Assembly (NCBI RefSeq): GCF_023205095.1 | Contig: NZ_CP046242.1 | Span: 336,501 to 400,500, forward strand | Reading direction: 5' to 3' | DNA: 64,000 nt | Source of the DNA: Bizionia sp. M204 | GTDB taxonomy: Bacteria > Bacteroidota > Bacteroidia > Flavobacteriales > Flavobacteriaceae | Shown here: piece after piece, positions 11,941-14,789 of the stretch | Layout: each line of letters opens with the position of its first letter | Position numbering within the stretch: position 1 is the stretch's first letter | Notes under the pieces: model-generated | The model's input: only the letters and a program-made list of their open reading frames with translations | Told to the model about the DNA's origin: nothing | Database searches by the model: none | Program-made: the position numbers and the translations under genes

Positions 11941-12761
11941 ATAGTTTTTTTATTTTCGATTTCTTTACTTAACAAGATGGCGTTTTCAAGACTACTTTTC
12001 CCAACTAAAACTCCGGAAGTCGTTTTTCCAATTTCGTCAAGTATTTTTTGTTTAAAAATGTTTATTCCTCTTTCAATTCCACCGTGGTCAGTTTTGTAGA
12101 CAAATTCCAATTCTGCATTTGATAGAATATCTGTCATTGACTTTTTCAAAAACTCGTCTTTCATCCAATGTTCCAAATTATTGCCTTTTTGATAAGCGGT
12201 ATCATATAAATGAATGATTCTACCTACAAATTGATTAAAATAAAAACGTAATAGCCATAATTCTTCTCCAATATATGGCCTTAATTTTTCAAGCTCTTGT
12301 TTGTAAGTGGATGTTGTTACCAACATTTTATCTGGATTTAATTCTTTAAATGCTTGTTCAACCGTTTGTAAGAATTTTTTAGGTAAGTCAGAATCATTTT
12401 TATTAATTCTTTCTACTTCATTTGTTAAAGTTATTGGGTCAAAATAATTTAAAGGTTGGATAAATTCCGCTATTCTTAATACATCTTCCCAAAAAAGTTC
12501 AAGTGCTTCTAATCTTTTTTCGTGAGTTGCTTTAATTCCCTCCGACTGATTAGCTAATGAATTTGCTAAAATCGATTGAGAAATTGATAATTCGCTTTTT
12601 AGATTTTCAATTTTAGCATCATATTTACTTTTGATTGAATTCTCAATTCCAGTTGCAATTCGTTTTTTCAATAGCCATCCAAGAAAAGAGACAATTCCAG
12701 AACTTAATAATACTGATATGATAAATTTTAAATCTTCGCTCATTTTTCAAATTATGCCTAA
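11816..12761 (-). mobile_element. Solitary integron-type gene cassette
   Basis: On the minus strand a GTTAGGC box (12756-12762) lies 13 bases before the start codon. It is followed by one gene and then the attC-like site ending in GTTAGAC. Cutting each GTTRRRY box after its G would release a 946-base circle holding one promoterless gene and one attC, the standard cassette design. No tyrosine-recombinase integrase is in the window, so this would be an isolated cassette or a remnant of an integrase-less array. Confidence 0.55.
11919..12743 (-). CDS. Cassette-borne membrane-anchored protein of unknown function
   Basis: 274 residues. The N-terminal membrane segment is LKFIISVLLSSGIVSFLGWLL (about 5-25), followed by a basic KKR stop-transfer. 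A predicted coiled coil (about 30-80, KSKYDAKIENLKSELSIS) leads into a helical cytoplasmic domain rich in aromatic residues. I do not recognise a family. It is the only gene of the attC-flanked cassette, and its last residues (MPNNGYK) are encoded inside the attC site. There is no sign of a toxin, antitoxin or nuclease motif. Proteins of this layout (TM, coiled coil, helical domain) occur in accessory regions, but a defence role is only speculation. Confidence 0.65.
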   Translation of the reverse strand: MSEDLKFIISVLLSSGIVSFLGWLLKKRIATGIENSIKSKYDAKIENLKSELSISQSILANSLANQSEGIKATHEKRLEALELFWEDVLRIAEFIQPLNYFDPITLTNEVERINKNDSDLPKKFLQTVEQAFKELNPDKMLVTTSTYKQELEKLRPYIGEELWLLRFYFNQFVGRIIHLYDTAYQKGNNLEHWMKDEFLKKSMTDILSNAELEFVYKTDHGGIERGINIFKQKILDEIGKTTSGVLVGKSSLENAILLSKEIENKKTMPNNGYK

Positions 12762-12954
12762 CAAGCATATACAACCACCTGTTCTAAATTAACTACTAAA
12801 ATAACATTCTAAAACCAGTAAACAAGCAGAATAATGGGTTAAATTCAATGGGCATTTATAAAGAGACGCGGAGTTGTGTTTAAAATAAAAAATCATTTTT
12901 TGCATCTTTTTGGAAATATTTACGTCTATTATATGAATTTAAAAATTAGATAGT

Positions 12955-13056
12955 ATGAAAAATATAGATTGTACCTGTAACTGTTCAAGTTGTAAAGGTG
13001 GTAATTGTGCTGGATGCACCTGTGAAAACTGTACCTGTAACAACTGCAACTGTTAA
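12955..13056 (+). CDS. 33-residue cysteine-rich peptide (metallothionein-like)
   Basis: The ORF starts MKNIDCTCNC and ends CNNCNC, with stop TAA at 13054. Eleven of 33 residues are cysteine (positions 6, 8, 10, 13, 18, 21, 23, 26, 28, 31, 33), in CxC and CxxC spacing separated by Asn, Thr, Gly and Ser. It has no hydrophobic signal. Such density of CxC/CxxC pairs is typical of metallothioneins and other thiolate metal-binding peptides, but I do not recognise a named family. A strong terminator follows 22 bases later, and the cysteine-tailed sigma factor begins 78 bases downstream. Coding is inferred from composition and context. Confidence 0.65.
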   Translation: MKNIDCTCNCSSCKGGNCAGCTCENCTCNNCNC

Positions 13057-13078
13057 GATGTGCTAAAAACATTGTAAA

Positions 13079-13122
13079 GCAGAACGTATTTAGTAAATTT
13101 ATACTAAAGGTTCTGCTTTTTT
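13079..13122 (+). terminator. Strong two-part hairpin terminator between the Cys-rich peptide and the sigma factor
   Basis: GCAGAAC / GTTCTGC outer stem and TTTAGTA / TACTAAA inner stem, followed by six T. It ends 12 bases before the sigma factor ATG. That leaves no room for a normal promoter in between, so sigma transcription must pass through this hairpin or start within it. Confidence 0.8.
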
Positions 13123-13134
13123 AATATTGAGAAA

Positions 13135-13674
13135 ATGACCACACACGATATATGGAATACCTATGCTGATGATATTAAATACTTTATTTTAAGTAAAGTA
13201 AAAGAGCCTGCCATTGCTGACGATTTGCTGCAAGAAACCTTTATAAAAGTGCATACCAAAAAGGATATGCTAAAAAATGATGAGAAGTTGAAATCTTGGT
13301 TATTTAGCATTGCACGCTTTACGGTTATGGATTATTTTAGAGCACAAAAAACCATAGCCAAATTACCGGAAAATGAATTAGTGGACACAGATTTTACGCC
13401 CGAGCATACGGAACATGACTGCTTAAGAAGCATAATAAAAAGTTTACCAAAAAAATATAGAGATCCCTTATTTTTATCTGATATTAAAGGGATGAAACAA
13501 GCGGATATAGCACAACAATTACAGTTAGCATTACCTACGGTAAAGTCGCAAATACAACGCGGCAGAAAGCTTATTACCCAAGGTTTTATGGATTGTTGTG
13601 ACTTTACACGCAATGAATCGGGTTTTCTAGTAGGTGAAATAAAAGACAAAAAGGACTGTAAAATATGCCATTAA
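13135..13674 (+). CDS. ECF sigma factor (SigZ-like) with cysteine-rich C-terminal tail
   Basis: 179 residues. Sigma region 2 spans about 5-70 (ADDLLQETFIKVH, LKSWLFSIARFTVMDYFRAQ). Region 4 spans about 95-150 (LPKKYRDPLFLSDIKGMKQADIAQQLQLALPTVKSQIQRGR). A tail then carries C154, C155, C175, C178 and the final H179. ECF factors recruit RNA polymerase to stress promoters. No anti-sigma gene is adjacent, and the tail offers a metal- or thiol-sensing site, as described for CorE-type ECF factors of Myxococcus. The tail and length resemble SigZ. The upstream neighbour is a cysteine-rich peptide. Family assignment is firm; metal sensing is inference. Confidence 0.85.
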   Translation: MTTHDIWNTYADDIKYFILSKVKEPAIADDLLQETFIKVHTKKDMLKNDEKLKSWLFSIARFTVMDYFRAQKTIAKLPENELVDTDFTPEHTEHDCLRSIIKSLPKKYRDPLFLSDIKGMKQADIAQQLQLALPTVKSQIQRGRKLITQGFMDCCDFTRNESGFLVGEIKDKKDCKICH

Positions 13675-13776
13675 AAAACGTATAATGGCTTAAGAGTTTT
13701 TTTAAAAATTTTAATGCCAAATTTTAGTCGTAAGTTTACAACATCATATTTTTTCAACTAACGGCTAATTATTTTT

Positions 13777-14388
13777 ATGTCCTTTAAAAAATTCCATCCC
13801 ATACTTAAAGAAGCTTTACAGGCTCAAAATATGGAAGCACCATTACCATTTCAGAATGCCATTTTACCAAAACTAAAAGGTGGTATGGATGTTTATGGAA
13901 TAGCGCCAACAGGAGCAGGAAAAACCACGGCTTTTATACTGGCTACTGTTCATAAATTAAAAGCGGAAGCCTTTGAAGATTCCCCACGTGCTTTAATTAT
14001 GGTGAAAGATAAAGAAGCAGCTTTGCACTTAAAAGACCAGTTTGAGCAGTTTACAAATGAAACCGATTTGCGTATTTATTGCGCCTATGATGAGTATGAT
14101 TTGGAAAAGCAAAAGGAAGAAATTTATTTTGGAGTCGATATCATGATTGTTACACCAAAACGCTTAAATAAGTTATACTTTTTAAACGGAATTCATTTAG
14201 GACAAGTGCAATTGTTTATCATGGAGGATGCCGAATTCTTAATGCGAAATAACTATCAGAATGATGTTTTGCGTGTAGCCGAAAGTTTAAAGAAATGCCA
14301 ATATGTTATTATGGCTGAAAAGCTATCGCCTAAATTAAAAAGTCTTCAAGAAAATATGATGAGTAACGCGCACATTGTTACTGGTTAA
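13777..14388 (+). CDS. Single-domain DEAD-box-like ATPase (half-helicase)
   Basis: 203 residues covering only the first RecA-like domain of a DEAD-box RNA helicase. The Q-motif-like segment is PLPFQNAIL (23-31) and Walker A is APTGAGKT (43-50). VTPKRL corresponds to motif Ib. Motif II reads EDAE (150-153) instead of DEAD. Motif III (SAT) is replaced by MAE (179-181). The stop is followed 5 bases later by a convergent gene, so no second RecA domain exists nearby. It may bind RNA or ATP without unwinding. A recent truncation is unlikely because the frame is clean and the end is tidy. Confidence 0.8.
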   Translation: MSFKKFHPILKEALQAQNMEAPLPFQNAILPKLKGGMDVYGIAPTGAGKTTAFILATVHKLKAEAFEDSPRALIMVKDKEAALHLKDQFEQFTNETDLRIYCAYDEYDLEKQKEEIYFGVDIMIVTPKRLNKLYFLNGIHLGQVQLFIMEDAEFLMRNNYQNDVLRVAESLKKCQYVIMAEKLSPKLKSLQENMMSNAHIVTG

Positions 14389-14393
14389 ATATC

Positions 14394-14789
14394 TTATAAT
14401 GTTAAGGTCCAGGTATGTTGCAACTGCTTGAATTTTTTCAGTTCTGAACGTAATAAAGGAAGGTAATCCTTGCCATCACTATTACAGTTTTCTAAACGTT
14501 TAATGTTTTTATTTAGCAAATACGTTAAGCGTTTTACTGAAGCAATATGCTTGTATTTATTTTCAGAGTACCGCGCCTCTTCGGCTTTTGCTATTTCTGG
14601 TGCTAATGAAACGGATTGCTGAACAATATCTCCTGAAAAATATATAAATGCATTTTCCGAACCATCTTCATGTAACGCTGATAAGTCTTGGTTTAAGTAG
14701 GTTGAAATGCTTCGCGAAAGCGTAATAATATCCATAGCCTTTTGATATAGAGGCGAATGGAATAAGCTTGAAGAGATGTGGGTAATCAT
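14394..14789 (-). CDS. Conserved-looking helical protein of unknown function
   Basis: 131 residues, largely helical, with no signal peptide or membrane segment. Features are a C-terminal basic stretch (LLNKNIKRLENC) and a run of charged helices (APEIAKAEEARYSENKYKHIASVKRL) suggesting a four-helix bundle. I cannot name a family. It converges on the half-helicase with a gap of 5 bases and is divergent from the Lrp regulator. Confidence 0.6.
   Translation of the reverse strand: MITHISSSLFHSPLYQKAMDIITLSRSISTYLNQDLSALHEDGSENAFIYFSGDIVQQSVSLAPEIAKAEEARYSENKYKHIASVKRLTYLLNKNIKRLENCNSDGKDYLPLLRSELKKFKQLQHTWTLTL

Follow-up and report, generated by a model that had tools for sequence, protein, structure and literature searches.

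In the sections of the literature that deal with its activation, CorE of Myxococcus xanthus is a sigma factor of the extracytoplasmic function (ECF) type that is itself activated by metal through a cysteine-rich tail, and the group of CorE and CorE2, ECF44, is now ECF238 (PMC3107203, PMC8999054). According to the passages of the second source that treat their motifs, CorE-like factors carry a CXC motif in the linker between the σ2 and σ4 regions, and about 85% of the newer ECF238 members are without it (PMC8999054). Here we describe a two-gene locus in a stretch of 64,000 nucleotides (nt) of the 3.36-Mb genome of Bizionia sp. M204, hereafter the window, in which an open reading frame (ORF) for a 33-residue peptide with 11 cysteines lies upstream of the gene for a SigZ-like ECF sigma factor with a cysteine tail. 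A sequence-only reading of the window had pointed to the pair; translation confirms the ORF, and the pairing is conserved, apparently with a single promoter, and reaches further than that reading supposed. As far as sequence comparison can tell, the two genes probably form an autoregulated module that responds to a thiophilic metal or metalloid.

The sigma factor resembles CorE in being an ECF factor apparently without an anti-sigma, with a cysteine-rich extension at the C-terminus and a cysteine in the linker region; its activation by metal is only proposed here. It differs in its linker, which in place of CXC has a single cysteine, C96, accompanied by H91 (in clade I, that of the window) or a CC pair (in clade II, described below), and in its best family match, which is SigZ. 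The outputs differ as well, being a multicopper oxidase or a P-type ATPase for CorE, in the parts of those sources that name them, and a tiny cysteine peptide from the same operon here. We propose that this sigma factor works like CorE but, because the CXC linker motif is absent and SigZ is nearest, we do not classify it as CorE; the comparison drawn in the sequence-only reading is narrowed to a functional likeness. SigZ, known from Bacillus and represented by TIGR02959 and NF007215, gives the best profile match, nearly over the full length, and shares the CC-x7-G core of the tail, but the window protein scores below both curated cut-offs (170.5 against 212 bits for NF007215, 159.3 against 168.65 bits for TIGR02959). 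No SigZ regulon appeared among the open-licence matches listed.

Bacterial metallothioneins (SmtA/BmtA, MymT and PmtA) resemble the peptide in being very small, one third cysteine, with CxC and CxxC spacings and no aromatic residues. SmtA is under the control of the repressor SmtB. MymT is placed under RicR control in the part of PMC10141476 that treats it, whereas a sigma factor of its own apparently governs the peptide of the window. This peptide differs further in having no histidine and no match to a metallothionein family, or to any other entry, in Pfam, NCBIfam or the sequences of the Protein Data Bank (PDB). The passages on CorE homologs in that same survey of marine bacteria (PMC10141476) make no mention of such peptides, and no title or abstract opening among the open-licence matches listed describes a cysteine peptide paired to an ECF gene, SigZ-like or otherwise, subscription papers and preprints lying outside the scope of the search.

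The peptide gene and its sigma factor

The peptide gene occupies positions 12955–13056 of the forward strand and translates as MKNIDCTCNCSSCKGGNCAGCTCENCTCNNCNC, giving the cysteine pattern CxCxCx2Cx4Cx2CxCx2CxCx2CxC. One third of its residues are cysteines, and Phe, Trp, Tyr and His are all absent; a small size, some 30% cysteine in CxC and CxxC spacings and few or no aromatic residues are the features by which metallothioneins are recognised, and the peptide has them all. Across the window it is alone among ATG-initiated ORFs of 20–60 residues with at least six cysteines. No ORF with at least eight cysteines arose in 20 mononucleotide shuffles, and none was found in 121,063 bp of motif-match loci from which 20 loci at this operon had been removed. 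These counts, together with conservation of the peptide in the genus and the family, lead us to reject a chance ORF.

Five of the six genomes of the genus, that of the window included, encode the peptide, the other four versions being 82–88% identical to it; in the sixth genome, which is 88% complete, no sign of either gene was seen. In a family set of 397 genomes the peptide is present in 60 (E up to 0.01). Among 80 titled loci, which represent 19 named genera together with metagenome-assembled and uncultured genomes, 48 have versions of exactly 33 codons, in which all 11 cysteines are invariant and TGT and TGC are interchangeable. In 76 of 79 peptides, at lengths of 32–35 residues, the cysteine spacing is identical, two of the others having an extra cysteine each and one being a remnant (L314; L and G numbers are our handles for loci and genomes). 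Besides the cysteines, residues G16, T22 and N32 are conserved. For the 275 pairs in which dS is below 1, the ratio of non-synonymous to synonymous substitution rates (dN/dS) has a median of 0.24, a rough value for so short a gene. Because the cysteines are invariant while codon choice is free, we conclude from these alignments that the peptide is encoded by a conserved gene under purifying selection.

The sigma gene begins 78 nt after the peptide stop codon and spans positions 13135–13674 of the forward strand. Its 179-residue product has Pfam regions 2 and 4 only (Sigma70_r2, PF04542; Sigma70_r4_2, PF08281) and is placed in the ECF superfamily by a score of 72.3 bits against TIGR02937, over the cut-off of 42.9. 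An AlphaFold2 model built from a 43-row alignment has a predicted local distance difference test score (pLDDT) of 86, with a tail that forms a short strand pair and a helix at pLDDT of about 72–82, and ECF sigma factors are the top matches of this model in a Foldseek search of the PDB. The C-terminal tail (C154, C155 and C175-x2-C178; codons 13594–13671, forward strand) is as the sequence-only reading had it, the four cysteines being present in 52 of 54 alignment rows, where the other two are a truncated and a broken copy, and in all 43 sigma sequences. That reading had also counted the terminal histidine, H179, which is present in the window protein but is not conserved (the last residue may be H, N, S, K, Q, T or others), and it had overlooked C96 and H91. 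C96 stands in 53 of the 54 rows, the exception being the broken copy, and together with H91 it is invariant in the 43 sequences. The two residues (H-x4-C; codons 13405–13422, forward strand) lie just before or at the start of region 4 and are possible linker ligands. The absence of a nearby anti-sigma gene holds as well: no anti-sigma domain was found by Pfam among eight proteins of the window, namely the peptide, the sigma factor and six neighbours. At 64 related loci, where anti-sigma profiles were not searched, this sigma gene alone constantly adjoins the peptide.

The linkage of the two genes extends through the family. Taking as sigma-positive the 52 of the 397 genomes with matches at E 4.6e-39 or better (the following matches begin at 1.7e-34), we find the peptide in 51 of them and in 9 of the 345 others. 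Only G192 among the sigma-positive genomes is an exception: two stops interrupt its sigma frame, and a remnant is left of the peptide. The peptide lies within 450 nt upstream of the sigma gene in 79 of the 80 titled loci, L314, the G192 locus, showing it as the remnant; conservation of the peptide frame beside orthologous sigma genes, on which the sequence-only reading depended, is thus borne out. In L291 the peptide is about 800 nt upstream of the sigma gene and keeps its own promoter. A gene for a 201-residue PEMT/ICMT-like membrane methyltransferase occupies the space between (L291, 2191–3000). The pairing persists down to 46% sigma identity, and to 35% in L097. Since the genomes share ancestry and, mostly, one chromosomal site, the association is largely vertical. 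Seven of the nine peptide-only genomes keep the 11 cysteines in an open frame; in G093 the peptide has lost three cysteines and in G330 it contains a stop. These nine genomes are mostly incomplete (75–99%), and other genes follow the peptide in the loci seen.

Promoter and intergenic hairpin

A predicted ECF-type promoter of the peptide gene, recognised by its sequence and its conservation in related loci, lies at positions 12901–12928 of the forward strand. It consists of a −35 element TGCATC (12901–12906), a 16-nt spacer beginning TTTTT and a −10 element CGTCTA (12923–12928), and the median distance from the end of CGTCT to the peptide ATG is 27 nt (75 loci). The 397 family genomes were scanned with a strict pattern, TGCATCTTTTT-N10..13-GTCT. 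In 41 of the 52 sigma-positive genomes a match lies no more than 130 nt before the peptide, and the remaining 11 have near-variants there (ten, plus G192 as L314); a relaxed motif is found in the 600 nt upstream of the sigma gene at 75 of the 80 titled loci. The strict motif is nowhere in the nine peptide-only genomes, and inspection of the upstream regions of eight of them gave seven without the motif by eye and a degenerate one in G093. Because the strict motif accompanies the sigma factor and is absent from the peptide-only genomes, promoter and sigma factor have largely been retained and lost together, as is expected of an autoregulated ECF promoter. The reality of the peptide gene and its promoter are well supported.

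The single match of the strict pattern in the Bizionia genome is the peptide promoter, on which ground we reject a wide regulon, and the same promoter is the only match there of TTGCATCN{13,19}CGTCTA. A looser pattern gives 8 matches in this genome against 2 in a reversed control, and 30 against 16 in the five genomes of the genus that have the sigma factor. The peptide promoters account for five of these 30, and several of the other 25 have counterparts of similar sequence in sister genomes; a regulon of a few further sites may exist. At L193 (G088:C14) the strict motif stands at position 925 on the reverse strand, 24 nt before a CDF Cation_efflux gene, and in G313 a DUF3703 gene (PF12487, 111 bits; L070, 4572–4953) with its own copy of the promoter directly precedes the peptide. 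DUF3703 is associated with metal genes, and both cases, each from a genome that has this sigma factor, would fit a metal-handling output of it. Four of the eight strict matches that lie away from the peptide in sigma-positive genomes were examined; besides these two, they are the matches in G303 and G103, which have no fitting gene downstream, and that in G103 recurs in a similar stretch of G167, a genome without the sigma factor. Similar 28-mers of the form TGCATCTTTTT..GTCT with a 13-nt spacer were seen in G269, G134, G167, G371, G011, G128, G230 and G050; these genomes lack this sigma factor except G050, and the 28-mers perhaps belong to a conserved coding stretch.

Between the two genes, folding and covariation identify an RNA hairpin followed by a T-run (13076–13119, forward strand). 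The hairpin of the window has a z-score of −3.94, none of 200 shuffles being equally stable; of 75 loci, 70 have an intergenic region that folds with a z-score lower than −2 (mononucleotide shuffles), and compensatory changes are present at 9 of 16 consensus pairs in 17 aligned sequences of similar spacing. Four or more T directly follow a stem in 44 of 74 loci (2.2 in shuffles), a cruder rule giving 32 of 75, and a simple terminator scan did not call the window hairpin. Since the T-run is missing at many loci, not every hairpin is a textbook terminator; we regard the element as a probable partial terminator, with an efficiency that we infer to be sufficient to hold the sigma factor below the peptide. 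Within the hairpin top a sequence GTAAnTTTATA occurs at 21 of 78 loci (0.08 in shuffles; intergenic regions of the window, 13054–13134, and of L239–L312), and in Tenacibaculum loci its place is instead immediately ahead of the sigma gene. This sequence could act as a housekeeping promoter that supplies the sigma factor at a basal level. A known RNA element was considered and rejected, Rfam giving no match up to E 1 over positions 12700–13900.

The order seen here, in which a short cysteine-rich ORF, a conserved hairpin and often a T-run lead up to the sigma gene, is also that of an attenuator, where ribosomes would stall at the cysteine codons under cysteine shortage and so disrupt the hairpin. 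Polycysteine short ORFs of mycobacteria have reportedly been proposed as such Cys-codon attenuators, and these too precede a terminator-like hairpin and a downstream gene. The present locus differs from them in that the spacing of the cysteines, along with G16, T22 and N32, is conserved and not the number of cysteines alone. The peptide is moreover found without the sigma factor in nine of the 60 genomes that have it, with 11 cysteines and an open frame in seven; another gene separates the two in L291; and related cysteine ORFs lie downstream of the sigma gene in L221–L223, L226 and L332, where all except that of L222 have a promoter motif of their own; an ORF in that position cannot serve as a leader. 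We have largely rejected the leader peptide, which we consider very improbable, and retain the peptide as a protein product of the proposed metal-responsive module.

Related sigma factors and metal-type neighbours

The family search gave 34 next-best SigZ-like matches, from 33 genomes, and each was either inspected or assigned to a class from its coordinates. In nineteen of them, clade II, a 37-residue cysteine peptide with 14 invariant cysteines (12 aligned) is encoded directly upstream, and a variant of it stands upstream of the sigma gene in G221. The 37-residue peptide is present in 23 of the 397 genomes, beside a sigma match in 19 and, on closer look, in two more (G305 and G357), and without a sigma gene at the locus in G227 and G363. 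It never shares a genome with the 33-residue peptide (23 versus 60 of 397; P about 0.02 if genomes are independent). The clade II sigma factors have CC in the linker where clade I has the single C96.

This correspondence, of an 11-cysteine peptide with the clade I sigma factor and a 14-cysteine peptide with that of clade II and no genome with both, would suit a peptide that regulates its partner directly, as a small anti- or co-sigma binding the sigma tail through a shared metal, buffering being secondary. Such a role accords poorly with the nine genomes, mostly incomplete, that have the peptide without the sigma factor. The promoter logic, in which the sigma factor would drive the peptide, fits an output gene, and the hairpin would put the peptide in excess over its supposed target. 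We consider direct regulation quite unlikely and continue to favour a peptide that is the output of a metal-responsive sigma factor.

Among the other family matches, an arsenite methyltransferase (ArsM) gene adjoins the sigma gene in L192, L330 and L331, over the NCBIfam cut-off, and an ArsM fragment under the cut-off does so in L207. ArsI/CadI-type genes under the cut-off are found beside the sigma gene in L227 (a fragment) and L336 (108.7 against 116 bits). In L206 the neighbours are a thioredoxin-like gene and an ArsP_1 permease, the latter over the cut-off. A flavin adenine dinucleotide oxidoreductase is encoded beside the sigma gene in L333 (by Pfam) and L337 (by likeness), and one other sigma gene is beside a DUF2703 gene. 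One of the matches (G113:C4) has a cysteine-rich ORF of 45 residues downstream of the SigZ-like gene. No neighbour could be linked to the sigma gene in L202, L334 or L339.

The sigma profile matched 43 of 385 genomes in a phylum set, at 44 places, of which 30 were inspected (the window gene and 29 others, some already in the family set). The clade I and II loci, L210–L219, have an upstream cysteine peptide in all ten cases. In L221–L223 and L226 the cysteine ORF is downstream of the sigma gene (26 or 27 residues in the first three, 43 in L226); the promoter motif precedes the sigma gene in all four and, in L221, L223 and L226, the cysteine ORF also. An ArsM-type gene follows the sigma gene in L224 (with a fragment score) and L229 (the same gene as L192), and ArsI/CadI-type genes follow it in L227, L230 and L231, scored as fragments, and in L228, L233 and L234, identified by likeness of letters. 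L237 has a thioredoxin-like gene (TIGR00412, under the cut-off) and L232 an ArsR-like ORF recognised by eye; no cysteine ORF or metal-type neighbour was seen at the loci L220, L225, L235, L236 and L238.

Nine plasmid records match the sigma profile, four of which were inspected. On Arenibacter pSMS7 the SigZ-like gene is followed by a thioredoxin-like gene and ArsP, and on a Hymenobacter plasmid it is about 2 kb from arsC/ACR3 genes; the matching Vibrio record has no annotation at the match. SigZ of a Priestia plasmid differs from the window protein in having the CC pair alone in its tail, with no metallothionein-like ORF near and no arsenic-type neighbour at the locus. A cysteine-containing ORF overlapping that region was dismissed, being antisense to an annotated gene.

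In a tree of 54 rows, in which 18 of 51 inner branches are open, the outgroups are long and the root is arbitrary, clade I (support 100/98) and clade II (100/99) form one group (97/83), with an arsenic-linked clade (98/90) beside it. The group around L221–L226 is placed apart from them. Because this group sits elsewhere in the tree, the tie to cysteine peptides probably arose at least twice, in a family often tied to arsenic and cadmium genes. The SigZ-like sigma factors beside ArsM, ArsI/CadI, ArsP or thioredoxin-like genes form a predicted arsenic-responsive ECF branch. Assigned to it are the sigma factors of L192, L206, L207, L224, L227, L228, L230, L231, L233, L234, L323, L330, L331 and L336. 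In their tails a CC pair is joined by one or several more cysteines, and in several loci a TGCGTCTTTTT..GTCT motif lies between the sigma gene and its neighbour.

These neighbours also bear on whether the signal is a metal at all. CC and CxxC pairs are common redox elements, and the same cysteine sets would serve a module that answers thiol or disulfide stress of oxidative or electrophilic origin, with disulfides forming in the sigma factor and the peptide as a redox buffer or as a zinc reservoir from which oxidation frees Zn; thioredoxin-like genes do adjoin some of the related sigma genes. In L206 and L323, however, the thioredoxin-like gene accompanies an ArsP_1 permease, and the links to ArsM, ArsI/CadI and ArsP denote the handling of arsenic or cadmium and not general thiol stress. 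We regard a thiol-stress module as unlikely. Ligand sets made up of cysteines only, the arsenic and cadmium neighbours of related sigma factors and the CDF and DUF3703 cases together point to thiophilic metals.

A proposed metal-responsive module

In the module that we favour, a soft metal, or As(III) or Sb(III), would be bound by C96, perhaps with H91, by C154–C155 and by C175 and C178 of the sigma factor. Binding would shift the placing of region 4 and so make the sigma factor active with no anti-sigma protein involved. The active sigma factor would then use the TGCATC-N16-CGTCTA promoter, giving a transcript that encodes the 33-residue peptide first. Many polymerases would stop at the hairpin, with the result that the peptide exceeds the sigma factor, and read-through past it would provide positive autoregulation. 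The peptide would take up metal through its 11 cysteines, detoxifying or buffering it, and removal of the inducer would shut the sigma factor off. In this sequence of events the binding of metal, its identity, the means of activation and the feedback by metal removal are what we infer.

A broader proposal, which we offer tentatively, is that the Bacteroidota contain SigZ-like sigma factors that sense metals or metalloids themselves and have been wired at least twice, in clades I and II and in the group around L221–L226, to metallothioneins not described before. Each pair would act as a metal-stat with cysteine sets that change together: metal bound by the tail would switch the sigma factor on, the sigma factor would transcribe the metallothionein and its own gene, and the metallothionein, by stripping the metal, would switch it off.

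Several observations weigh against the metal-responsive module or limit what is claimed for it. The tested cysteine peptides (those of 33 and 37 residues and the downstream ones of 27–45) match no Pfam or NCBIfam model, and the profiles of the first two match no PDB sequence. No metal genes were seen in the conserved chromosomal neighbourhood of the locus. Strict promoter matches away from the peptide are few in sigma-positive genomes (8 in 52), the CDF and DUF3703 cases are single each, and the strict motif is found also in 35 of the 345 genomes without this sigma factor, as 41 scattered, chance-like matches. The T-run is absent after the hairpin in 30 of 74 loci by the better of the two rules. 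The AlphaFold2 model has a predicted template modelling score (pTM) of only 0.47, and the Fisher p of about 1e-53 for the co-occurrence of peptide and sigma factor assumes independent genomes and, given their shared ancestry, credits them with more independence than they have.

If the proposal is right, orphan SigZ-like sigma factors gain a testable function, and a sigma factor acting as its own sensor would be seen to have a metallothionein as its dedicated output. The 33-residue, 37-residue and 27–45-residue downstream peptides would add metallothionein-like families in Bacteroidota that lie outside all Pfam and NCBIfam models. With two genes and a narrow promoter, the module would be attractive for studies of metal exchange between sensor and buffer and as a self-contained metal biosensor, and the arsenic-linked branches would predict which cysteine arrangement reads which element.

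The surroundings of the locus are those of a conserved chromosomal stretch. A metal operon judged by its neighbourhood was considered and rejected, since the recurring neighbours belong to this stretch and no metal genes were seen among them. At the 64 related loci these neighbours include a long mutase gene (33 of 64), which we take to be IcmF-like, and an Lrp/AsnC-type gene identified by Pfam (37 of 64). Downstream of the sigma gene in the window, positions 13777–14388 encode a stand-alone DEAD-box domain of 203 residues in which the second helicase half is absent; its cluster is present at 12 of the 64 loci. Positions 14394–14789 of the reverse strand encode a 131-residue protein with no Pfam match over the cut-off and no NCBIfam match; its cluster recurs at 37 of these loci, close to the Lrp/AsnC-type gene.

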